From: Corynebacterium sp.
Lineage (GTDB): Bacteria; Actinomycetota; Actinomycetes; Mycobacteriales; Mycobacteriaceae
Reading direction: 5' to 3'
Assembly: GCF_030538285.1 (NCBI RefSeq)
Contig: NZ_JAUNUG010000029.1
Span: 1 to 37,955 of the forward strand
Length of the DNA: 37,955 bases
Part shown: positions 23,960 through 35,327 of the stretch, in pieces
Position numbering within the stretch: position 1 is the first letter of the stretch
Layout: the number at the start of each line of letters is the position of its first letter
Position numbers and translations under genes: made by a program
Notes under the pieces: model-generated
What the model was told of the DNA's origin: nothing
The model's input: only the letters and a program-made list of their open reading frames with translations
Databases searched by the model: none

Positions 23960-24781
23960 TTAGCGGGTCGCCGCCTTCATGGCGGATACGAACTCGCCGA
24001 GCTCAGCCTTGAGGCCGCGCATGTCGGTGACCGCGTTGCCCTCGATGTATTTGTCCATAATCTTGGTGATCGCCGAGCCGGAGATCGCCCCGGAGGCGCC
24101 GGCCGCGATCGCATCGGCGACGTGCTGCGGGGAGGAGATGCCGAAGCCGAGGAGGATGGGGGCACCCCCGAAACGTTTGACGTTCTCCACGACCTCGGCG
24201 AGGCCAGTGATCGAAGACTCACGCTCCGTTCCCGTCACGCCATCGCGGGAGATGGCGTAGATATAGCCGCGGGAATGCTCCGCCACACCTTCCAGCGTAG
24301 TTTCAGCGGCCTGAGCAGGGGCGATGAAGATGGGATCAACGCCGGCGCGCTCAGCAGCGGCGATGAAGGGCGCACCCTCGCGGACGGGGACGTCGGGAAG
24401 CAGGATGGAGTCGGCGCCGGCCTCACCGAACTCGGAGTAGAAGTAGTCCAGACCCCGGGTGAAGGGCACATTGCCGTAGATGAGCATGCCGATCGGCAGA
24501 TCAGGGAACTCGGCGCGGATGGTGCGGACCTGCTCGAGGGCGTCGTCGACGGTCACACCCCCCTCCAACGCGCGGATGTGGGACTTCTGGATCGTCGGGC
24601 CATCAGCGACGGGATCGGAGAAGGGGACGCCGATCTCGAGGGCGTCGGCACCCGCCTCCACGACGGTGCGCACGATCTCCAGGGCATCGGCCGGGGAGGG
24701 GTCGCCGAGCATGAGGAAGGGGACGAAGGCACCCTCGCCACGCTCCTGCAAAGCGGTGAACAGTGCTTCATAACGAGACAT
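23960..24781 (-). CDS. trpA: Tryptophan synthase alpha subunit
   Basis: A 273-residue TIM barrel that cleaves indole-3-glycerol phosphate to indole and glyceraldehyde-3-phosphate. FVPFLMLGDPSP and ADALEIGVPFSDPVADGPTIQKSH carry the catalytic acids, and the later DVPVREGAPF and GFGISSPQHVADAIAAGASGAISGSAI bind the phosphate. It works as an alpha2-beta2 complex with TrpB, which explains the ATGA overlap with trpB. It is the last gene of the operon, followed by a hairpin terminator. Confidence 0.97.
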   Translation of the reverse strand: MSRYEALFTALQERGEGAFVPFLMLGDPSPADALEIVRTVVEAGADALEIGVPFSDPVADGPTIQKSHIRALEGGVTVDDALEQVRTIRAEFPDLPIGMLIYGNVPFTRGLDYFYSEFGEAGADSILLPDVPVREGAPFIAAAERAGVDPIFIAPAQAAETTLEGVAEHSRGYIYAISRDGVTGTERESSITGLAEVVENVKRFGGAPILLGFGISSPQHVADAIAAGASGAISGSAITKIMDKYIEGNAVTDMRGLKAELGEFVSAMKAATR

Positions 24782-25992
24782 CAGGACTCCTTGTTGAGGA
24801 CGAGATCGGGGTTCTCCTCCAGGGTGCGGCGGACGTGCGCGACGTCCTTGTCACCGCGACCCGACAGGGAGACGAGGATGGTCATCGGCTCGGTAGCCGT
24901 CTTCGCACGCTTGAGGGCATAAGCCATGGCGTGGGAGGACTCGAGCGCCGGGATGATGCCCTCGTGCAGGGAGAGCAGCTGGAAGGCCTCCAGGGCCTCG
25001 GCGTCGGTGATGCCGACATAGGTGGCGCGGCCGGTCTGATGCAGGTGGGCGTGCTGCGGGCCGACGCCCGGATAATCCAGGCCAGCGGAGATGGAATAGG
25101 ACTCCTCCACCTGGCCATCGGAGTTGCGCATGAGGTAGCTGCGCGCGCCGTGCAGAATGCCGATGGATCCGTTGTTGATGGTAGCGCCGTGCTTGCCACT
25201 GTCCAGGCCGAGGCCACCGGGTTCGGCGCCGACGAGTTCCACGCCCTCGTCGTCGATGAAGTCGGCGAACATGCCGATCGCGTTGGATCCGCCACCCACG
25301 CAGGCGACGACGAGGTCCGGCAGACCGCCGGTGCGCTCAATCATCTGGGCCTTCGCCTCGGTGGAGATGATGCGGTGGAATTCGCGCACGATCGTCGGGA
25401 ACGGGTGAGGGCCGGCCGCGGTGCCCAGCAGGTAGTGGGATTCGTGGAAGGTGGCGGTCCAGTCACGCAGTGCTTCGTTGACGGCGTCCTTGAGGGTGCC
25501 GGAGCCGGCATCGACGGGAATGACCTCCGCGCCCATGAGCTTCATGCGGAAGACGTTCGGCTGCTGCCTCTCGACGTCCTTGGCGCCCATGTAGACGACA
25601 CATTTGAGGCCCAGAAGGGAGCAGGCCAGAGCCGTTGCGGTGCCGTGCTGGCCCGCGCCCGTCTCGGCGATAATACGCTTTTTGCCCATCCGCTTGGCCA
25701 GCAGCGCCTGGCCGATGACCTGGTTGGTCTTGTGCGCGCCGCCATGGACGAGGTCTTCACGCTTGAGGAAGATGCGGGCGGGGCCGTCGAGCGGCAGGTT
25801 GGAGCATTCGGTCAGCGGGGTCGGGCGGCCGAGGTAATCGCGTAGGTAGGTGGCCAGCTCCTCGCGGAAGGAGGGATCATTCTGGGCGTCGACGAAGGCC
25901 TTCTCCAGCTGGTCGAGCGCCGGGATGAGCGACTCGGGGACGAACTGTCCACCGAACTCGCCGAAATAGGCGGGCAGGAGTGTGTTGGTCAT
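24781..25992 (-). CDS. trpB: Tryptophan synthase beta subunit
   Basis: A 403-residue PLP enzyme that joins indole and serine to form tryptophan. [13 protein letters not shown] opens the protein, [28 protein letters not shown] carries the PLP lysine, [13 protein letters not shown] follows, and [12 protein letters not shown] binds the cofactor phosphate. ATG 25992 is chosen since it gives the family N-terminus [11 protein letters not shown]. It overlaps the trpCF stop (ATGA), and its own stop overlaps the trpA start. Confidence 0.97.
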
Positions 25993-27383
25993 GAGCGGTC
26001 CTGATGGTGGTAGGTGCGGATGGTGGCGAAGGCGCGGCGCAGCGCGCCGGAGTCCTTGCGTCCGGGCTGGCCGGGGTACTCCACGCCGGAGTTGAGGTCG
26101 AGGCCGAGGCACCCCACGGCGAGTGCGTCGGTGATATTGGCGGGGTTGAGGCCTCCGGCGAGCAGGGATTTCTGCTTCACGACGTCCGGGATCCCCGACC
26201 AGTCGAAGGTGGTTCCGGTGCCGCCGTCCCCGGCGTCGAGAACAAGCTTATCGACGTCCCCGAGCAGTTCTTGCGCCAGTTCTGCGCCGTTGTCGCTGGT
26301 CATGGAGATGGCGCGCCAGACCTCGACACCTTCCGGCACGGAGGCGATGAGCTCGCGCTCGGCCTCCAGGGAGCCCTGGTAGGGGGCGTGGAGCTGTATG
26401 GCGGAGATGCCGTCGAAGGAGAGGTCGGTGGTGCGGCGCGTAACGGCGACATAGCGTAGGCCCGGCTCTGCGGCCATGATCTCCGCGGCTGTTTCACGTG
26501 AAACATTGCGCGGGGAGGCCTCTTCGAAGATGAGCCCGCCGTAGACGGCACCGGCGGCCGCAGCCGCCTGCGCGGCGTTGCCGGAGGTCAGTCCGCACAC
26601 CTTGTTCGGTCCGTAGACGAGTTCGCGGGCGGCGAGGTCGATGTCCGGCTGCGAGGTGAGCTGGGAACCGACGAGGAAGCCATTCGAGTGCCCGCCGAGG
26701 CGACGCACGGTGGCGGCGTCGCGGATGCCGGACTCGGAGACAACCACCGCGTCCTCGGGAACCAGGGCTGCGAGGCGGGCGGAACGGTCCAGGTCAATGG
26801 ACAGATCGTGCAGGTTACGGTGGTTGACACCGATGATCTTCGCGCCGAGACGCAGGGCCCGATCGGTCTCCTCCTCATCGATGACTTCGGTGAGGATGTC
26901 CAGGCCGTATCCCTCGGCGACGGCAGCCAGGGCGGCGTACTCGGCGTCGGAAAGCACGGAGAGCATGAGCAGGATGGCGTCGGCACCGAAATAGCGGGCG
27001 GCGTGGATCTGCACCTCGTCGATGATGAAGTCCTTGCACAGCACCGGCAGGTGGGTGGTGGAGGCGACGGTGGCCAGGTGGTCGTAGTCGCCACCGAAGC
27101 GGTCCGGCTCGCAGAGCACGGAGATGCCGGAGGCGTACTTGGAGTACACGCGGGCGATCGCGGCGGGCTCATAGTGCTCGCGGATCATGCCGAGCGAGGG
27201 CGAGGCCGACTTACACTCCATGATGAAGCGGTTGCCGCCGCGCTGGCGCAGGGCGTCGTAGAGCGAGCGGGTCGAGCGGGTCAGCGTGGAGAGGTCGACG
27301 TGGGCGATGCGCTCGCGGATCTCCGGCAGGTGGCCGCGACGCCCCTCGACGATCGATTCCAGGACGGTGGGCAGCTTAGACAC
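25989..27383 (-). CDS. trpCF: Bifunctional indole-3-glycerol phosphate synthase / phosphoribosylanthranilate isomerase
   Basis: A 464-residue fusion of two TIM barrels. The N-terminal IGPS half has [29 protein letters not shown] and [10 protein letters not shown]. The C-terminal PRAI half begins near [27 protein letters not shown] and ends with [14 protein letters not shown] and [16 protein letters not shown]. It carries out two consecutive steps of tryptophan synthesis. The same fusion occurs in enterobacteria and corynebacteria. GTG 27383 overlaps the trpD stop by 8 nt. A perfect parS (26490-26505) lies in the PRAI half and is read as VSRET. Confidence 0.96.
26490..26505. promoter_or_regulatory. 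parS: parS site 4 (perfect TGTTTCACGTGAAACA)
   Basis: A perfect 16-bp parS palindrome within trpCF. It is read as VSRET, as in sites 2 and 3. Confidence 0.96.
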
Positions 27384-28404
27384 TGTAATCAGTCCCCTCG
27401 TGAGTGGTGATCCAATTCTGGACTGTGCCGTCCTCCAGGAGGCGCAGCGCCAGCTCCGTGCCCTCGCGGAGGCTGTCGGCACGGGAGTTGAGGTAGAACA
27501 TCGCGCCGGCGTTGACCGCCACGGCGTTGCGGTGCGCGGCCGGGCCCGTGCCGTCGAAGATGGCGCGCATGTGCTGCGCATTCTCCACTCCATCGCCGCC
27601 GACGAGGTCCTCCAGGGAGCACTTATCGACGCCGAGTTCCTCCGGCGTCACCTCGTACTCCACGATGTCCCCTCCCTCCTTCAGCTCCCACACGGTGGTG
27701 GTGCCGTGGACGGCGATCTCATCGGTGCCAGCGCCGTGGACCACGAGGGCACGGGAGCGTCCCAGCTCACGGAACACCTCCGCCAACATTTGGCCATGCC
27801 CAGGATTGGCTACACCCATAATTTGAAACTGCGGGCGAACCGGGGAAAGCAGAGGTCCGAGCACGTTGAACAGCGTCGGAATCTTCAGCGCCTTGCGCAC
27901 CGGCTGCGCGTGGGCGATCGCCGGGTTGTACGCCGGAGCGAAGAGGAAGGTGAAGTTGGAGGCCTCGAACTGGCGGACCGCGCGGTCTGGGTCGAGGTCG
28001 AGCGGGATGTTGAGGGCCTCGAGCACGTCCGCCGAGCCGGACTTCGAGGAGACGGAACGGTTGCCGTGCTTGACCACCTTGAGGCCGCCAGCGGCCGCCA
28101 GCAGGGAGGCACCAGTGGTGATGTTGATGGTGTTGGCTCCATCGCCACCCGTGCCGGCCGTGTCGAGCACACCCTCACCGGTCACAGGGAAGGGGCGTCC
28201 GGCGTTGAGGAAGGCCTTGGCAGCGCCGGCGATGTCCTCGAAGGTCTCGCCGCGGGTGCGGATGGTCGCGAGCAGCGCGGCGATGTGGACATCGTCGTAC
28301 TCACCGATGGTCATCGGGGTGAAAACCTCCACGGCCTCCTCCACGGTGGGGGCCGGATTGTCCAGGAAGCGCAGCAGCGTCTGCAGGGTGTCAGGATTGG
28401 TCAT
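27376..28404 (-). CDS. trpD: Anthranilate phosphoribosyltransferase
   Basis: A 342-residue enzyme transferring phosphoribose from PRPP to anthranilate. The PRPP-binding loop DTAGTGGDGANTINIT, KHGNRSVSSKSGSADVLEAL and FNVLGPLLSPVRPQFQIMGV are diagnostic. It starts 3 bp after trpG and overlaps trpCF by 8 nt, so it is separate from trpG, unlike the TrpGD fusions of enterobacteria. Confidence 0.97.
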   Translation of the reverse strand: MTNPDTLQTLLRFLDNPAPTVEEAVEVFTPMTIGEYDDVHIAALLATIRTRGETFEDIAGAAKAFLNAGRPFPVTGEGVLDTAGTGGDGANTINITTGASLLAAAGGLKVVKHGNRSVSSKSGSADVLEALNIPLDLDPDRAVRQFEASNFTFLFAPAYNPAIAHAQPVRKALKIPTLFNVLGPLLSPVRPQFQIMGVANPGHGQMLAEVFRELGRSRALVVHGAGTDEIAVHGTTTVWELKEGGDIVEYEVTPEELGVDKCSLEDLVGGDGVENAQHMRAIFDGTGPAAHRNAVAVNAGAMFYLNSRADSLREGTELALRLLEDGTVQNWITTHEGTDYSV

Positions 28405-28407
28405 CGT

Positions 28408-29016
28408 CTAATTCCTTTCGGTGAGCAGCTGCTCCACGCAGCGGTTGAGGATGATGGGCCCGGAGGGGCTGAGTACGCTCTCGGGGTGGAACTGCAGCCC
28501 GAGCGCCAGGTCCATGGCGGCGGCCATGATGACGTCGCCGATCTCGGTCTCCGTCGTGGCCAGCGTCGTCACACCTGGCGGCGCCTCGACGCAGCCCAGC
28601 GAGTGGTAGCGGGCGACGGGCACGAGACGGCCGACCTCGCCGGGGATCTCAGCGTCGACAGCCAGACCCTCGAAGACGGGGTGCACGTCCCCCACCAGCG
28701 TCATCGGCACGGACACGCCGTGCACCGGACCGCAGGGTTCGACGGTTCCGCCGTGGTGCTCGATGAGCGCCTGGAAGCCGAGGCAGATGCCGAGGAGCGG
28801 GACGCGGCCGAGCGCGGCGTCGATAAGCGCCATCATGTGACCGGCATCGGCGGGATAACCGGGGCCGGGTGACAGGACGATGAGATCCGGCTCGGCGGCG
28901 AGGATCTCCTCGACGGCCACGGTGTTGCGGAAGACGGTGCAGCGGTACCCGGCGAGGGCGTCGACGAGGTTGTAGACGAAGCTGTCGTGGTTGTCCACGA
29001 GCACGATGTGTGTCAT
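28408..29016 (-). CDS. trpG: Anthranilate synthase glutamine amidotransferase subunit
   Basis: A 202-residue class I glutamine amidotransferase that supplies ammonia to TrpE. The catalytic cysteine lies in LLGICLGFQAL, and the His/Glu pair in LGLQFHPESVLSP. SPGPGYPADAG forms the oxyanion loop region. Its ATG overlaps the trpE stop (ATGA), as expected for equimolar subunits. One GCGTCGATAAGC element (28817-28828) is read in frame as LIDA. Confidence 0.96.
   Translation of the reverse strand: MTHIVLVDNHDSFVYNLVDALAGYRCTVFRNTVAVEEILAAEPDLIVLSPGPGYPADAGHMMALIDAALGRVPLLGICLGFQALIEHHGGTVEPCGPVHGVSVPMTLVGDVHPVFEGLAVDAEIPGEVGRLVPVARYHSLGCVEAPPGVTTLATTETEIGDVIMAAAMDLALGLQFHPESVLSPSGPIILNRCVEQLLTERN
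28817..28828 (+). repeat. GCGTCGATAAGC element (in trpG)
   Basis: An exact copy on the plus strand, read as LIDA in the antisense trpG gene. Confidence 0.85.
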
Positions 29017-30533
29017 CGGATGACCTCCAGGGTGGAATCCGCGGCGAGCGCGATGGCGTTGAGCACGGCGTAGGCCTTGTGCAGGGTCTCATCGGCCTCG
29101 GACTGGGGGCTGGAATCCCGCACCACACCCGCGCCGGCCTGCACCAGTGCCACCCCGTCCTGCACGAAGGCGGAGCGGATGACGATGCAGTTGTCCATGG
29201 TGCCGTCGCCCTTGAGATAACCCACGGCGCCGCCGTAGGACCCGCGACGCTGCTTCTCGACGCCCCGCAGCAACTCCATCGCCCGGATCTTCGGCGCGCC
29301 GGACAAAGTGCCCATGTTCATGCACGCCCGGTAGGCGTCGAGGGCATCGAGGGAGGGGTCGAGGGTGGCGGTCACCCGGGAGACCAGGTGCATGACGCGG
29401 GAGTAGCGGTCCACCTGCAGCAGGTCGGCGACCCGCCGGGTAGCGGGGACGGCGACGCGGGCGAGGTCGTTGCGGGCCAGGTCGACGAGCATGGTGTGCT
29501 CGGCGATCTCCTTGGCATCGGTACGCAACTGCAGCTCCATGCGGATATCGAGTTCATCGTTGATGGTGCCGTCGGCGTTGAGACCGCGCGGGCGGGTGCC
29601 GGCGATGGGATACAGCTGCACCTCACGGGAATCCGGATCGAACTTCAGGTTCGATTCCGGGGAGGCGCCGAAGAGCTCGAAGGGACGGCCGTTGGTCCCG
29701 ATCCCCCGCTGGTAGAACATGTACGGGCTGGGGTTCGTCTCACGCAGCTGGCGGTAGGCGGCGAAGGCGTCCGGGCAGGGAGCGGAGAAGGTGCGCGCCG
29801 GCACCACCTGGTAGATGTCGCCGTTGTGGATGTGCGACTTGAGGTCCTCGACGTGGGCGCGGAACGTCCCGTCATCGATGTCAGCTTCCACGCGGAGCAC
29901 GTCCTCCGGGTGATGCTCGGGCTCGAAGGTGGGGACGGCGGCGTCGATAATGGCGGCGAGCTCGTCGATACGCGGGGCGAGGTCGCCGGCGAAGGAGACG
30001 CCCGTGAGCTGGGCCGTCTGCTCCTCATGGTTGATGCTGAGCACGATCTCGGCCAGCTCGAACTGGTAGTCCGGGTAGGTGTTGGGCCCCTCCCCCACCG
30101 CTGGGAGATCCTCGAAGGTCTCCAGGAAATCGAAGGCGATGCCGCCGGCCAGCATCGGCAGGGTGTCGGTGCTGTACCCGGCGTCACGGGTGAGCGCCCG
30201 CAGCGGCTCCACCGGGCTGACCGCGGTGAGGCGCTCCCGCTCATCGGCGGCCGTGGTGCGCGGGAACGTGAAAGTATCACGCCCGTACTCGGCCAGCTGC
30301 TCATTGAGCTTATCGACGATCACCTCCCCCGAATCACTCACCGCCTCCGCGATGACGTTGTGGCCGGTGCAGGTCAAGCGCACCGAGGAGGCCAGCACGG
30401 CGAGAGAGGAGATACCGGACTTGGTCGTGATGTCCGCTGACTCCAGCAGCAGGGAACCACCCAAGTGGGCAAACAGCCCGGAGGCGTCCGCGTGGTAGCG
30501 GACATCCCGGGTGTGGATGATCGGAGAGCTCAT
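29013..30533 (-). CDS. trpE: Anthranilate synthase component I
   Basis: A 506-residue chorismate-utilising enzyme converting chorismate to anthranilate. The LLESADI motif near residue 30 is the usual tryptophan feedback site. The catalytic domain shows IYQVVPARTFSAPC, FGASPESNLKF, IAGTRPRGLN, LVDLARNDLARV and GTLSGAPKIRAMELL. An AAAGG lies before the ATG, after the attenuator region. It is the first structural gene of the trp operon. Confidence 0.97.
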   Translation of the reverse strand: MSSPIIHTRDVRYHADASGLFAHLGGSLLLESADITTKSGISSLAVLASSVRLTCTGHNVIAEAVSDSGEVIVDKLNEQLAEYGRDTFTFPRTTAADERERLTAVSPVEPLRALTRDAGYSTDTLPMLAGGIAFDFLETFEDLPAVGEGPNTYPDYQFELAEIVLSINHEEQTAQLTGVSFAGDLAPRIDELAAIIDAAVPTFEPEHHPEDVLRVEADIDDGTFRAHVEDLKSHIHNGDIYQVVPARTFSAPCPDAFAAYRQLRETNPSPYMFYQRGIGTNGRPFELFGASPESNLKFDPDSREVQLYPIAGTRPRGLNADGTINDELDIRMELQLRTDAKEIAEHTMLVDLARNDLARVAVPATRRVADLLQVDRYSRVMHLVSRVTATLDPSLDALDAYRACMNMGTLSGAPKIRAMELLRGVEKQRRGSYGGAVGYLKGDGTMDNCIVIRSAFVQDGVALVQAGAGVVRDSSPQSEADETLHKAYAVLNAIALAADSTLEVIR

Positions 30534-30685: not shown

Positions 30686-30714
30686 ACGTTAACCCCGCGG
30701 AGAGGTCATGTCAA
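30686..30714 (-). promoter_or_regulatory. trp operon promoter
   Basis: On the minus strand, consensus TTGACA (30709-30714), a 17-bp spacer, and TAACGT (30686-30691). Transcription would start near 30679, about 11 nt before trpL. The -35 box overlaps the stop codon of the upstream SdpI-like gene. Confidence 0.85.
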
Positions 30715-31142
30715 TTTTTGTCGGCCTCACTGGCGGCCTTGCGCAGCGCGGCGACATCCACCTCGGCGGGGGCACCGCAGTTGCAGTCCTGGCCGCAGCC
30801 GCCCTGCTCGTCGTCTGCGGGGGCGTCGATAAGCGAAGCAGTACGGGCGCCGACGTTGGCGCCGAGGGACACGGCGACCAGCGCGATGACCACGGTGACC
30901 ACAGTGAACACCCACATCCACCCGCCCGCGACAACAGCACCGAAGAGCAGCGCCACGCCACCGAAAGTCCAGATCGGGCCGGCGGCGGCGTGCGCGGCCT
31001 CCCATGCCTCCTGGGATTTGCGCACCTCCGGCACCCGCAGACCGAACACCGAGTTGCCCGGCAGCTTCCGTGTCCACGCCAGCACACCGAAGAGGATGAG
31101 CGCTACGGCGATAACCAAGAGGGCGATGGCGAGGAAAGTCAT
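30711..31142 (-). CDS. SdpI-family membrane protein with cysteine-rich tail
   Basis: A 143-residue protein with an N-terminal helix (FLAIALLVIAVALILFGVLAW), the SdpI-like block NSVFGLRVPEVRKSQEAWEAAHAAAGP, and two further helices (IWTFGGVALLFGAVVAG, VFTVVTVVIALVAVSLG). The cytosolic tail holds GGCGQDCNCG, four clustered cysteines that might bind a metal. B. subtilis SdpI gives immunity to the SdpC toxin, but most actinobacterial homologues have no known role. The gene is divergent from the symporter gene. The TAGACT box lies 7 nt before its ATG. Confidence 0.8.
   Translation of the reverse strand: MTFLAIALLVIAVALILFGVLAWTRKLPGNSVFGLRVPEVRKSQEAWEAAHAAAGPIWTFGGVALLFGAVVAGGWMWVFTVVTVVIALVAVSLGANVGARTASLIDAPADDEQGGCGQDCNCGAPAEVDVAALRKAASEADKN
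30823..30834 (+). repeat. GCGTCGATAAGC element (in sdpI-like gene)
   Basis: An exact copy on the plus strand, read as SLIDA in the sdpI-like gene. Confidence 0.85.
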
Positions 31143-31149
31143 GAGGGTG

Positions 31150-31155
31150 AGTCTA
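31150..31155 (-). promoter_or_regulatory. -10 box (TAGACT) for leaderless sdpI-like gene
   Basis: TAGACT on the minus strand is followed by 7 nt and ATG 31142. Confidence 0.45.
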
Positions 31156-31175
31156 ACCCCTGCCCCAGTAGACGG

Positions 31176-31181
31176 TACATT
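31176..31181 (+). promoter_or_regulatory. -10 box (TACATT) for the dicarboxylate symporter
   Basis: TACATT is followed by 6 nt and ATG 31188, consistent with a leaderless mRNA. The divergent sdpI box is about 20 bp away. Confidence 0.4.
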
Positions 31182-31187
31182 TCGATC

Positions 31188-32420
31188 ATGGACCTCAAGC
31201 GCCTTTCCTCATCACTGCTATTCCGGGTGGTCATCGCGATCATCCTCGGCATCATCTGCAGCTTCTTCTTCCCCGAGTGGCTAGCCCGCGTCTTCGTCAC
31301 CTTCAACGGGCTGTTCGGCGGCTTCCTCGGCTTCTTCGTCCCCGTCCTCATCTTCGCGCTCATCACCCCGGCGATTGCCGGGTTGGGGCGCGGCGCCGGC
31401 AAATGGTTGGGTATCACCACCGGCATCGCCTACTTGTCGACGATCCTCTCCGGCCTCCTCGCCTACCTCGTCTCGGTGGCGGTCTACCCCTGGCTGCTGG
31501 CCGACCAGGGCGCGGTGGCCGTCTCCGACATCGACGAGGGTGGCCTGGCCCCCTACTTCGCCATCGAGATCACCCCGCCCTTCGCGGTCATGACCGCCCT
31601 GCTGCTCGCCTTCGCCGTCGGCCTGGCCATGACCACCGTGAAATCCGACACCCTGTACAAGGGCTCCCGCGACCTGGAGCGCGTGGTCATGAAGGTGATC
31701 ACGGCGTTCATCATCCCGCTGCTACCGGTGTTCATCTTCGGCATGTTCCTCTCCCTGGGCATGAACGGCAACCTCATGGACACCATGATCGCCTTCGGCA
31801 AGGTGCTCGCCCTGTCCGTCGGCATGACCTTCGTCTTCCTCGCCTTCCAGTACGGGGTCGCCGGTGCGGTCACCGGGCGCAACCCCTTCGTGGCGTTCAA
31901 GAACATGCTGCCCGCCTACGCCACCGCGCTGGGCACCTCTTCTTCCGCCGCGACCATCCCGGTCACCTACGCCTCCGCACTGAAGAACAAGGTGGAGGTC
32001 AACGTCGCCGGCTTCGTCATCCCACTGTGCGCCACCATCCACCTGGCCGGTTCGATGATGAAGATCGGTCTCTACGCCTTCGCCATCGTCTTCATGTCCG
32101 GTCTGGACGTCTCCCCCGCCCTGGCCATCGGCTTCCTCCTCATGCTGGGTGTGACCATGATCGCCGCGCCGGGTGTGCCGGGAGGTGCGATCATGGCGGC
32201 CGTCGGCCTTCTGTCCTCCATGCTCGGCTTCTCGGATGACCAGGTGGCGCTCATGATCGCCGCCTACATCGCCGTCGACTCCTTCGGCACGGCCGCGAAC
32301 GTGACCGGTGATGGTGCGATCGCGATGATCGTCAACAAGTTCGCCAAGGGCAAGATCCCGCCGCGCGGCACCGAAGAAGAGACCGAGGGCCTCGAGGCTG
32401 CGGTGTCCGGCGAGAAATAA
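31188..32420 (+). CDS. Dicarboxylate/amino acid:cation symporter (DAACS family)
   Basis: A 410-residue membrane transporter with eight helices plus re-entrant loops expected. The serine-rich loop GTSSSAATIPVTYA and the late NVTGDGAIAMIV (NxxGD) are the substrate- and cation-binding signatures of the glutamate transporter superfamily. The overall look (FFVPVLIFALITPAIAGLG) is closest to the SstT/DctA-like group that moves serine, threonine or dicarboxylates with sodium or protons. The exact substrate is unresolved. It is followed by the first 45-bp palindrome. Confidence 0.92.
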   Translation: MDLKRLSSSLLFRVVIAIILGIICSFFFPEWLARVFVTFNGLFGGFLGFFVPVLIFALITPAIAGLGRGAGKWLGITTGIAYLSTILSGLLAYLVSVAVYPWLLADQGAVAVSDIDEGGLAPYFAIEITPPFAVMTALLLAFAVGLAMTTVKSDTLYKGSRDLERVVMKVITAFIIPLLPVFIFGMFLSLGMNGNLMDTMIAFGKVLALSVGMTFVFLAFQYGVAGAVTGRNPFVAFKNMLPAYATALGTSSSAATIPVTYASALKNKVEVNVAGFVIPLCATIHLAGSMMKIGLYAFAIVFMSGLDVSPALAIGFLLMLGVTMIAAPGVPGGAIMAAVGLLSSMLGFSDDQVALMIAAYIAVDSFGTAANVTGDGAIAMIVNKFAKGKIPPRGTEEETEGLEAAVSGEK

Positions 32421-32428
32421 GGCCGCGC

Positions 32429-32473
32429 CTTTATAGTTCTTTATAATTCGGCAATTTATAAAGAGGTATAAAG
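32429..32473. repeat. 45-bp nested palindrome, copy 1
   Basis: The unit reads CTTTATA, 3 nt, CTTTATAA, 9-nt centre, TTATAAAG, 3 nt, TATAAAG, and is exactly symmetrical in lengths (7-3-8-9-8-3-7). It is identical over all 45 bp to copy 2 at 33634-33678, and identity stops exactly at the outer arms. It contains a consensus TATAAT (32442-32447) on the plus strand. The final AAAG becomes part of the ATPase ribosome-binding site AAAGGAG. Confidence 0.95.
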
Positions 32474-32478
32474 GAGCC

Positions 32479-33633
32479 ATGCAGCCCAGCCCTTATACCC
32501 CGGGAACCGTGGCGACTGATGTGCCCGGTCGTCAGACGCTTCTGCAGGACGTCGACCGTCGCCTGGAGTTCATCCGCCAATTCCCGCGTATCGACGGCCG
32601 CATCTCCGTCTACGTCGGGCCCCGCGGGGTCGGGAAAACCAGTTTCCTGCGGGCCGCGCAGAAGCAGGCTGATATCGCAGGCTACGCCACCCTGTGGGTG
32701 ACAGCCGGGGACGGTTCATTCGTGGATTCCCTGGTGGCGGAGTTCCATGGGCTGACCCAGAGCTGGCGGGGCGATGCGAAGGCCGTTTTCCTCGGATTGC
32801 TCAGCTCTCTGAGTGTGTCCGCCGGAGGGGTGTCTGTCACCTTTGAGGGGCAGGCTGGTGAACGTGCCCAGAAGGCCAGCCTGGGGCGCGCACTGCAGAG
32901 CGTGGTGGAGGCGGCGACTCGACAAGTTGTGGAGAGCGGACACCACGGCCTAGTGATCTTCGTGGATGAAATCCAGGCTGCTGACGACGACGGTCTGCGG
33001 GCTTTAGCTTATGCCTGGCAGCACATGCAGTCCGAGGCTGCAGATCTTCCGGTGATGGCTCTGACTGCGGGGCTGGGCCACAGCCAGGATGTGATCACCG
33101 AGGCAGTCAGTTTTGCCGAGCGTTTCAAGTATGAGCATCTGGGAAATCTCGATGAGGATGCTGCCCGGTCGGCGCTTGCGGATGCTGCGGAGGATGCGGG
33201 GGTCTCTTGGGCCCCTGCCGCGTTGGCGGAGGCGATGGACTTGGCCACTGGTTACCCCTATTTTCTGCAGTTAGTCGGGGATTTCACGTGGCAGGCTGCT
33301 GGGTATCCTGCCACGGGCGCCGTATTGGAACTGCCGCATGTTGCGCAGGCGCGCCGTGATTTTGCGGAGTCACGAGAGGACTTTTTCCGCTCCAGGTGGA
33401 TGAAGGCCACAGATGCGGAATCTGAGGTGCTGCAGGCTATGGCGCAGCTCCCTCCAGGGCCGAAGCGCCGGGGAGATATCGCGGCTGCACTCGCTAAACC
33501 GACGACTGCGATCAGCATGGTCCGCCGTTCCCTGTTGGACAAGGGGTTGGTGGAGGCCTCGGGGTGGGGGATGTTGGACTTCACCGCGCCCGGTTTCGCG
33601 GAGTTCTTGAAAACAGAGCTGGGGCTCGACTGA
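32479..33633 (+). CDS. AAA/STAND-like ATPase with C-terminal winged helix, bounded by repeats
   Basis: A 384-residue protein. The start NPF-like segment SPYTPGTVATDVPGRQTLLQ is followed by Walker A GPRGVGKTS (47-55), Walker B LVIFVDE (158-164), and a sensor region VMALTAGLGHS. The late segment GDIAAALAKPTTAISMVRRSLLDKGLVEAS (about 325-360) looks like a winged helix that may bind DNA. This resembles the PF13191-type ATP-binding proteins scattered through actinobacterial genomes, for which no function is established. AAAGGAG lies 2 nt before the ATG, an unusually tight spacing. Identical 45-bp palindromes lie immediately before and after the gene. No integrase or transposase gene accompanies it. 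Confidence 0.82.
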   Translation: MQPSPYTPGTVATDVPGRQTLLQDVDRRLEFIRQFPRIDGRISVYVGPRGVGKTSFLRAAQKQADIAGYATLWVTAGDGSFVDSLVAEFHGLTQSWRGDAKAVFLGLLSSLSVSAGGVSVTFEGQAGERAQKASLGRALQSVVEAATRQVVESGHHGLVIFVDEIQAADDDGLRALAYAWQHMQSEAADLPVMALTAGLGHSQDVITEAVSFAERFKYEHLGNLDEDAARSALADAAEDAGVSWAPAALAEAMDLATGYPYFLQLVGDFTWQAAGYPATGAVLELPHVAQARRDFAESREDFFRSRWMKATDAESEVLQAMAQLPPGPKRRGDIAAALAKPTTAISMVRRSLLDKGLVEASGWGMLDFTAPGFAEFLKTELGLD

Positions 33634-33678
33634 CTTTATAGTTCTTTATAATTCGGCAATTTATAAAGAGGTATAAAG
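33634..33678. repeat. 45-bp nested palindrome, copy 2
   Basis: An exact copy of the 32429-32473 unit in the same orientation, beginning at the base after the ATPase stop codon (33631-33633) and ending 7 bp before the convergent MFS stop. The spacing between copies is 1205 bp. Confidence 0.95.
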
Positions 33679-33685
33679 AGGTCGC

Positions 33686-34996
33686 CTACCTGCTCAGCGC
33701 GAAGTGGCGTTCCGCCTGCTCCGCCTCGTGCTCCGGGCCCAGCGGGATGCCGGTGCGGTCGCGCAGTGAGGCTGCCGCCAGCAGCCCGATGAACGTGGCG
33801 ACGAGCAGGTAGGCGGTGACACCCAGGGTCGAACCGGTCGCCTGCACCACGGCCGCCGCGATGGTCGGTGCAAAGGCGCCACCCAGGATGGAGCCCAGCG
33901 CGTAGGTGATCGAGGCGCCGGAGCCGCGTACCGACGCCGGGAACAACTCCGCATACAGCGCCGCCTGCTGGCCGTAGGTGACCCCCAGGCCCACGCCGAG
34001 CAGCAGCATCGCAGGCCAGATCATCCCGTTTTGCACGAGCGGGAACAGCGCCGCCGCGGCTACTGCCTGAATGACGAAGCCCACCAGGTAGGTGTTGCGG
34101 CGGCCGATCCGGTCGGAGATCCCGCCCGCCAGCACGCCCGAGATCAGCCAGGTGATGGCCGCGCCGGTGACGGCCCACAGCACTGCGCCGCGTTCCATCC
34201 CGAGGTCATTGACGGCCCAGCTCTGCACGTAGCCACCGGCGATCATGTAGCCCACGACGCCGTTGCCGGCGAAGACCAGCGCGCCGACGAACACCACCGG
34301 GAAGTAGTTACGCAGCAGCTCTCCCAGTGGGTTGGCCTGCTTCTTCTTCTGGGCAATCTCCTCGAACACGGGTGATTCGTCGACGCCGGAGCGGATCCAA
34401 AAGCCCAGGACCATGAGGCCGATGGACAACAGGAAGGGCACGCGCCAGCCCCATTCGATGAACGCATCGCCCGGCGCGATCATGCTCATCAGCGCCAACA
34501 TGCCGGAAGACAGCAGCAGCCCGGCAGGCGCGCCAGCCTGCGGCCCCGCCCCGAACAGGCCCCGCTTCTCGACGGGCGCGTGTTCCACCGCCAGCAGCAC
34601 CGCCGAACCCCATTCACCTCCGGCGGAAATGCCCTGGATGATGCGGAAGAGGATAAGCAGCAGCGGGGCGGCGATGCCGATCGTTTCGTAGGTGGGTACC
34701 AGGCCGATGAGGGTTGTCGCTCCGCCCATGGCCAGCAGCGTCACCATGAGGACCACGCGCCTGCCGAAAACGTCGGAGAAGTGCCCCGCCAGTACCGCGC
34801 CGAGGGGCCGGAAAAGGAAGGACAGGCCGACGGAGAGGAAGCTGACGATGGTCGCCATTCCCGGATCGAGGTCGCCGAACATCACCTTGTTGAACACCAG
34901 ACCAGCGACCGCGGCGTACAAGAAAAAGTCGTACCACTCGATGGCGGTGCCGATGGTCGTCGCCGCCACAACCCGGCGATCATCTCGTCTCTGCAT
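33686..34996 (-). CDS. MFS transporter, metabolite:H+ symporter (MHS) family
   Basis: A 436-residue, 12-helix transporter. ATTIGTAIEWYDFFLYAAVAGLVFNKVMF at the start and GHFSDVFGRRVVLM in the loop between helices 2 and 3 are hallmarks of the MHS group (ProP, ShiA, KgtP, citrate and others). QGISAGGEWGSAVLLAVEHAP follows. The substrate is not decidable from sequence. ATG 34996 fits the family N-terminus, and a TAGTGT box ends 8 nt upstream. An ATG at 35023 would cross the divergent Rieske start. It is convergent with the ATPase gene. Confidence 0.92.
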   Translation of the reverse strand: MQRRDDRRVVAATTIGTAIEWYDFFLYAAVAGLVFNKVMFGDLDPGMATIVSFLSVGLSFLFRPLGAVLAGHFSDVFGRRVVLMVTLLAMGGATTLIGLVPTYETIGIAAPLLLILFRIIQGISAGGEWGSAVLLAVEHAPVEKRGLFGAGPQAGAPAGLLLSSGMLALMSMIAPGDAFIEWGWRVPFLLSIGLMVLGFWIRSGVDESPVFEEIAQKKKQANPLGELLRNYFPVVFVGALVFAGNGVVGYMIAGGYVQSWAVNDLGMERGAVLWAVTGAAITWLISGVLAGGISDRIGRRNTYLVGFVIQAVAAAALFPLVQNGMIWPAMLLLGVGLGVTYGQQAALYAELFPASVRGSGASITYALGSILGGAFAPTIAAAVVQATGSTLGVTAYLLVATFIGLLAAASLRDRTGIPLGPEHEAEQAERHFALSR

Positions 34997-35004
34997 GAGC
35001 AAGC

Positions 35005-35014
35005 ACACTACCGT
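35005..35014. promoter_or_regulatory. Overlapping divergent -10 boxes for the MFS and Rieske genes
   Basis: The minus-strand TAGTGT (35005-35010) lies 8 nt before the MFS ATG 34996. The plus-strand TACCGT (35009-35014) lies 7 nt before the Rieske ATG 35022. The boxes share two bases, so the two leaderless promoters should exclude each other. Confidence 0.45.
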
Positions 35015-35021
35015 GGCCAGC

Positions 35022-35327
35022 ATGAAAGAACTTGCTCATCTGGACCAGATTGCCCCCGGGTCCACCCTGCTTCTCGACGACGGCCTCCTCCTCGTCCGCG
35101 ACCTCGCCGGCGAGGTTCACCTCACCAATAACCGGTGCCCCCACGTCGGCTGGTCACTGGCAAAAGGCACGCTGCACGAGGACGCAGTTATCGAGTGTCC
35201 CCTGCACAAGGGCCTGTGGAATCTGCGCTCCGGTGATCCGGTGCGCTATCCGGCGCGGGTGCCGATGACGGTGTATCCCGTGGAGGTGCGGGATGGTCGG
35301 GTCTACCGTCTTCCCGACGCAGAGTAG
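35022..35327 (+). CDS. Rieske (2Fe-2S) ferredoxin-like protein
   Basis: A 101-residue soluble protein without a signal peptide. The cluster ligands are in CPHVGW and CPLHKGLW (CxH and CxxH), spaced as in stand-alone Rieske ferredoxins and the small subunits of nitrite reductase or dioxygenase systems. No oxygenase partner is adjacent, so the redox partner is unknown. It is divergent from the MFS gene with a shared promoter region. Its last 140 bases overlap the 3' end of the convergent ybaN-like gene. Confidence 0.88.
   Translation: MKELAHLDQIAPGSTLLLDDGLLLVRDLAGEVHLTNNRCPHVGWSLAKGTLHEDAVIECPLHKGLWNLRSGDPVRYPARVPMTVYPVEVRDGRVYRLPDAE

Follow-up and report, generated by a model that had tools for sequence, protein, structure and literature searches.

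How does a single ATPase gene come to lie between two identical copies of a palindromic repeat, and what does the repeat do for the gene? This question is raised by a stretch of 37,955 nucleotides from Corynebacterium sp. (NCBI RefSeq assembly GCF_030538285.1, contig NZ_JAUNUG010000029.1; the whole stretch is hereafter the window), in which an ATPase gene is bounded on both sides by a 45-bp repeat between two transporter genes. A preliminary description of this DNA had offered two readings, namely a one-gene mobile cassette inserted by recombination at a palindromic site, or an ATPase whose winged helix binds both repeats as operators. The cassette and operator readings both found partial support in our comparison with related genomes and are mutually compatible. 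We lean towards the view that the gene, which would encode an autoregulated ATPase within the Orc/Cdc6-STAND superfamily, acts as a one-gene cassette between two copies of its own operator.

Two identical 45-bp repeats enclose the ATPase gene

The two copies of the repeat, listed with the other features in Table 1, lie exactly where the preliminary description had placed them around the gene and are identical at all positions (45/45). The arm layout given there, 7-3-8-9-8-3-7, was also exact. The inner and outer arms consist of the same 7-mer, CTTTATA at positions 1 and 11 and TATAAAG at positions 29 and 39 of the 45-mer, and each copy comprises four half-sites in dyad order at 10-bp spacing, of which two are direct and two inverted. 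Because the inner and outer arms share one 7-mer, the wording "four half-sites 10 bp apart" fits the 45-mer better than "nested palindromes". Identity was confirmed to end at the outer arms, the flanking bases being different (CCGCGC and GAGCCA at copy 1, GACTGA and AGGTCG at copy 2). The gene starts 5 bp past copy 1, and copy 2 begins, as had been described, one base past the stop codon.

No other exact direct repeat in the window is as long as the 45-bp one (the next longest measures 19 bp), and the G+C content of the 45-mer is 24% vs 66% for the window. The RNA fold of the 45-mer (-14.6 kcal/mol) was equalled by none of 200 shuffles. Even when up to 3 mismatches were allowed, the core 28-mer had no match elsewhere in the host genome; a 17-mer half-operator (≤3 mismatches) was likewise found solely within the two copies, but the reversed control pattern also matched 2 + 2 times. 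The exact 45-mer had no match in a contig-database search, and all matches in an Rfam scan of the repeat remained under the gathering scores.

Table 1 Features of the repeat-bounded unit and its neighbours (positions in the window)
Feature	Position	Strand	Remarks
Left neighbour, SDF-family symporter (sstT-like)	30708..32420	+	Also borders the empty site of G075
Repeat copy 1	32429..32473	.	Four half-sites (CTTTATA twice, TATAAAG twice), 9-nt loop; putative operator; iterated upstream sites in relatives
Putative ribosome-binding site AAAGGAG	32470..32476	+	First four bases come from copy 1; read from sequence
ATPase gene	32479..33633	+	384 aa, AAA_16-type P-loop, C-terminal winged helix; by Pfam, AlphaFold model and fold comparison
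Repeat copy 2	33634..33678	.	Identical to copy 1; starts directly 3' of the ATPase stop codon
Right neighbour, MFS metabolite:H+ symporter	33686..35023	-	Also borders the empty site of G075

Gene-less relatives mostly keep a single copy

Searching relatives for the palindrome, as had been proposed, yielded matches to a degenerate form of it in 19 of 242 Corynebacterium genomes (G numbers denote genomes and L numbers loci); a dispersed or REP-like repeat was rejected on this count and on the two copies in the host genome. The close ATPase gene was present in 13 of the 19, a gene remnant in G219, and neither in G075, G176, G049, G215 and G217. All window-type palindromes without a gene (5/5) lay at sites filled with the cassette in another species.

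A one-palindrome empty site between the same two transporter genes had been predicted, and it was found in G075. Here the contig carrying sstT and the contig carrying the MFS gene end in the same 55 bp, made up of ten bases of the sstT-side flank and the 45-bp palindrome. Because their ends overlap by 55 bp, we took these contigs as neighbours, which, if correct, implies that the two transporter genes of G075 are joined by a single palindrome. The G075 palindrome differs from that of the window at two positions (25 and 27) at which the window copies match each other; this suggests that the doubling at the window locus is recent or has been homogenised.

Single palindromes were also found at four other two-sided sites. 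At the ppa (diphosphatase gene) site, G003 carries a palindrome, an interrupted gene and a second palindrome, and G176 one palindrome with flanks 95% and 84% identical. The menB/menC site is filled in G038 and G189 and holds one palindrome in G049, G215 and G217. Two further sites belong to a different subfamily: that of G125, with one copy in G095, G176, G030 and G003 (each the sole copy found in its genome), and that filled in G050 and G222, with one copy in G022 and G193. Over the six two-sided sites with gene-less relatives, exactly one copy was present in 11 of 14 site-genome pairs and none in 3 of 14 (at the G009 site, G237 was the one genome read on among those matched), and for the G142 and G106 sites no relative lacking the gene was found. 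These alignments show that what is repeat-gene-repeat in one species is one repeat at the same locus in relatives, and gain and loss bounded by the repeats is supported. The preliminary description had held that the cassette would fail if all relatives carried both palindromes without the gene or if the 45-mer were widespread as an ordinary intergenic repeat or terminator unrelated to such ATPases; neither was observed for the window palindrome.

It is very improbable, in our view, that the palindrome serves to terminate transcription in both directions or is some other hairpin kept for itself, with the gene as a secondary guest. The gene-less palindromes at the G125 site do stay close to that of G125 (37 of 48 columns invariant among six sequences, with one paired A-T to C-G change), G024 has a single palindrome elsewhere without a gene, and the window and the G003/G176 ppa sites lie between convergent genes. 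However, the window repeat is A+T-rich and lacks a T tract, a terminator scan placed no terminator inside it, the menB/menC site is divergent, and the window-type gene-less palindromes all mark sites that another species fills.

Several further observations were made at these sites. The two-sided cassettes of G189 (L087 8296-9156) and G003 (L086 7977-8708) have an interrupted ATPase gene with both palindromes kept, and the open reading frame inside is of transposase type (rve; DDE_Tnp_1). The 4-nt loop of the G125-site palindromes varies between species (AAAA or TTTT), the arms changing little, which looks like inversion by template switching or hairpin processing. In G220 (L134 956-1501), about 480 bp of other DNA without a palindrome lies between the sstT-like and MFS genes; the sstT-MFS gap may be an insertion-prone place. 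A menD label for one neighbour gene was rejected, this gene encoding a DASS symporter.

The gene product is probably a DNA-binding ATPase

The protein matches Pfam AAA_16 (PF13191) with 39.4 bits, above the curated cut-off of 32.6, and all 26 aligned relatives match the same family (E ≤ 0.01). ATPase_2 (PF01637) reached 26.3 bits, under its curated cut-off of 33.2, though the fold matches 2qen and 2fna. An AlphaFold model (mean predicted local distance difference test score 89.5) has a winged helix at its C-terminal end and places it after the AAA+ module, which is the Orc1/Cdc6-type order; in structure comparison, the modelled fold resembles archaeal 2qen/2fna and Orc1/Cdc6. Sequence identity is 15 and 12% to the archaeal Walker-type ATPases PABY2304 (2qen) and SSO1545 (2fna), which are of the Pfam ATPase_2 kind, and 12-14% to Orc1/Cdc6 initiators. 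A search of the PDB by sequence gave no convincing match. On the basis of the model, the gene product is a probable DNA-binding ATPase of the Orc/Cdc6-STAND superfamily. In PHROGs it matches one family of unknown function (E 3e-6), and one phage record is related to it (31%), while a search with two short patterns confirmed no viral contig. A defence system was considered and rejected, the best PADLOC match having an E-value of 0.0048.

The upstream copy as a putative operator

The earlier suggestion that the repeat serves as an operator gains support from the winged helix predicted by the model together with iterated sites directly upstream of the gene in relatives. Most of the close relatives read by eye, in Corynebacterium as well as in roughly twelve other genera, carry an iterated site of nested or tandem form at this position, the letters of which vary between subfamilies; G182 and G031 lack it. 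More remote relatives in Corynebacterium, of the NPFRP/NPFTP type, belong to the same wider protein family, and many of them have tandem half-sites upstream. For these, 40 members about 30% identical were chosen by rank among the listed matches with incomplete ones skipped, and the start could be placed in 39: exact tandem 8-mers 9-12 bp apart occur upstream in 15/39 and downstream in 3/39, compared with 0.2 expected from mononucleotide shuffles. One such remote family member is encoded in the window's own genome, on contig 37.

Copy 1 does supply a TATAAT (32442-32447) and the start of the ribosome-binding site, as had been described; no complete pair of sigma-70 promoter elements was detected by a consensus scan. 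The iterated site overlaps the putative promoter region of the ATPase gene, in which the TATAAT is the one promoter element seen. Since relatives commonly have an iterated site just upstream, we infer that the upstream copy is the operator of the ATPase gene.

The same features bear on the idea of an integrated mini-replicon, in which an Orc-like ATPase would be the initiator, the iterated palindrome the origin, and the two copies the trace of a circle integrated by one crossover. The fold is close to that of Orc1/Cdc6 bound to origin DNA, the sites are iterated, and the plasmids pTpau01 and pTC1 each carry a relative near parA (L332, L334). However, ParA is close by in just two of the nine plasmid neighbourhoods read, a separate replication initiation gene lies nearby on pCPRO01, no free circle was seen, and the second copy is absent in G017; we consider this origin of the unit far-fetched. 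The nine plasmid neighbourhoods shared no layout. The parA genes near the relatives on pTpau01 and pTC1 could point to a function in maintaining the plasmid.

The family is patchy and the downstream copy is confined to some of its members

Close ATPase relatives (E ≤ 1e-40 in the 242 Corynebacterium genomes) have a patchy distribution, being present in 21 genomes at 23 places, and occupy several unrelated loci. A downstream second copy accompanies the gene at 7 of these 23 places (G000, G142, G106, G038, G189, G003 and G009) and at 2 of 10 more distant ones (L023-L032; G125 and G050), and G222 has one also. The paired palindromes are identical in G000, G142 and G106 and about one base different in G038, G189 and G009. 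Beside these, the palindrome-plus-gene unit of G008 (L084) is enclosed by a pair of nearly matching direct repeats of ~245 bp, which may represent either a long duplication or a further element. Family members within the menaquinone gene cluster sit at differing positions across species, and G177 (L074), like G211, has two members there, 56% identical and 5 kb apart.

How the gene can arrive is best seen in G017, where eight bases, the palindrome and the gene lie between two copies of a 17-20-bp sequence. In G107, G108 and G146, which are 94-95% identical to G017 over the joined flanks, this sequence is single, with neither palindrome nor gene. The unit can, by this comparison, arrive with only its operator; exact loss in G107, G108 and G146 is a possible alternative. 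The repeated stretch at the window locus is the palindrome itself, unlike the target-type duplication of G017. The cassette proposed in the preliminary description finds support in the empty one-palindrome sites at the window locus and the four other two-sided sites, but its proposed entry by recombination at a palindrome does not: the sole clear insertion, that of G017, is in a palindrome-free target, and deletion from repeat to repeat explains the empty sites equally well.

Losses are seen as well. At the site of G221, the palindrome persists in G110 together with the final codons of the gene and in G031 by itself, and at the site of G026 the first codons are left in G136. Gene loss, as read from these remnants, is common and not always clean. 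rpoB gave no matches for G075, G125 and G140, whose sites were left unpolarised by it.

Horizontal acquisition of the cassette would fit three findings. Between G038 and G189, the cassette DNA is 93-94% identical and 158 of 187 fourfold sites are shared, vs 91 of 171 in the adjacent menC (p = 1e-10). G038 and G070, with RpoB 98% identical, have cassettes that are 48% identical and whose positions within the menaquinone cluster differ. Third-codon-position G+C content (GC3) of the ATPase gene is under the neighbours' mean at 13 of 15 loci (p = 0.003; the neighbours are mechanical open reading frames). Since only 2 of 15 inner branches of the ATPase tree are well supported, no transfer history was drawn from it.

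An ordinary autoregulated gene with a duplicated operator, not mobile as such, is a tentative alternative that we hold to be possible. In this case the second copy would have arisen by local duplication, favoured perhaps by a repression loop or insulation, and one-copy sites would be losses by deletion between the repeats. Palindromes and direct repeats are known to promote deletion; the upstream site is common and the downstream copy is not, gene remnants mark losses, and G038 and G189 share one site. On the other hand, the family occupies several unrelated loci, and the arrangement in G017, with its flanking repeat, resembles an insertion. The doubling would have been needed separately in about eight lineages with differing loops, and the patchiness, the low GC3 and the high synonymous identity between G038 and G189 demand horizontal acquisition besides.

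Observations weighing against a repeat-bounded cassette

A number of findings weigh against the cassette bounded by its operator. Outside Corynebacterium, a second copy was found at none of 29 loci (300 bp upstream and 400 bp downstream read; L068 left aside as a contig artefact), and the downstream copy was absent from all 40 remote NPFRP/NPFTP-type loci, unlike the window unit. In G003 and G125 the loops of the two copies are oppositely oriented, and in G142 and G050 the repeat extends 13 bp or more beyond the palindrome. The unit of G017 has one palindrome, and none served as its target.

The empty sites are not uniformly clean either. Gene-less relatives free of the palindrome occur at three of the six sites, namely in G220 (window locus), G030 (ppa) and G237 (G009 site). 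On the ppa side, all 10 other aligned genomes, G030 among them, have no palindrome match, and the palindrome is therefore not an old feature of that locus. On the menB side of G049, G215 and G217 there is 1.8-2.5 kb of other DNA, and at the G125 site the right flanks differ in G003 and G030, with the left flank alone corresponding. G024 (L341 2608-2660) has a single G125-type palindrome for which no filled counterpart is known; its surroundings lack an ATPase gene over about 2.6 kb and do not resemble the G125 flanks. A single copy is therefore not always the mark of a known cassette site. The decay losses in G110 and G136 are ragged. Finally, the ATPase is only mildly above menB in the G038/G189 comparison (menB 120 of 162 fourfold sites, p = 0.017), and the identity between these genomes drops past the right-hand palindrome with no sharp drop on the left (menB) side.

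Genomic setting and search for mobility genes

The absence of a transposase or integrase had been pointed out before, and a Pfam scan of 34 chosen window open reading frames (30 of them at E ≤ 1e-8, with further mechanical ones outside the scan) agrees with this. No transposase gene was found in the unit, nor an integron integrase among the 34 reading frames, the rest of the genome being outside the scan; 14 of the 30 had no Pfam match at E ≤ 1e-8. An active element, in which the ATPase and a host nuclease or recombinase direct insertion at palindromes or terminator-like hairpins in the manner of TnsC, MuB or IstB, is quite improbable in view of these results. Moreover, archaeal ATPases, Orc and STAND proteins outrank TnsC in fold likeness, and the flanking repeats are missing in the 40 remote relatives.

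Elsewhere in the window, positions 1014-2869 and 23960-30533 hold parA/parB-like genes with an amidase gene, murJ and a poly(A) polymerase-like gene, and minus-strand trp biosynthesis genes. The window is an ordinary chromosomal setting, probably near the replication origin.

A possible life cycle of the unit and its significance

In the favoured reading, that of a one-gene cassette bounded by its operator, the winged helices of an ATP-dependent ATPase oligomer would bind the four phased half-sites of copy 1. As these overlap the -10 region and the ribosome-binding site, expression would be held low; copy 2 would be bound by the same ATPase. Exit of the unit would depend on host recombination, or on slippage, from one copy to the other, with one copy staying behind. 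Entry would come with horizontally acquired DNA, either at a single repeat already present or, as in G017, at a new target of which a short stretch is directly duplicated. Host functions, or a factor encoded outside the unit, would carry out the recombination step. The most economical exit mechanism is host recombination at the repeats, and an operator role would account most economically for the upstream copy; the downstream copy may have come about as a by-product of entry, or may serve looping. Going by the sequence comparisons, deletion between repeats and horizontal acquisition would suffice without active transposition. That the Orc/Cdc6-like ATPase and the iterated palindrome represent a class of one-gene mobile unit that needs host enzymes only to enter and leave chromosomes at cognate palindromes, a single palindrome being left behind or used as attachment site, appears unlikely to us.

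Two known systems invite comparison. An integron gene cassette consists of an open reading frame and a palindromic attC site with the core GTTRRRY. Like it, the window unit has one compact gene per palindromic site, and the empty site keeps one site; however, the window unit has its own putative promoter and operator, no integrase was found in the window, and the core GTTRRRY is absent from the 45-mer and its reverse complement. A REP/RAYT unit is a single gene flanked by palindromes, as is the window unit, but the latter has no HUH transposase and its palindrome is not dispersed.

No paper describing such a one-gene unit was among those listed in searches of the open PMC library, from which most subscription papers are absent. 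The unit links an Orc/STAND-type ATPase without known role, a putative operator, and clean gene gain and loss, which are usually studied apart. Full and empty sites in many species make the function and the spread of this ATPase family testable.
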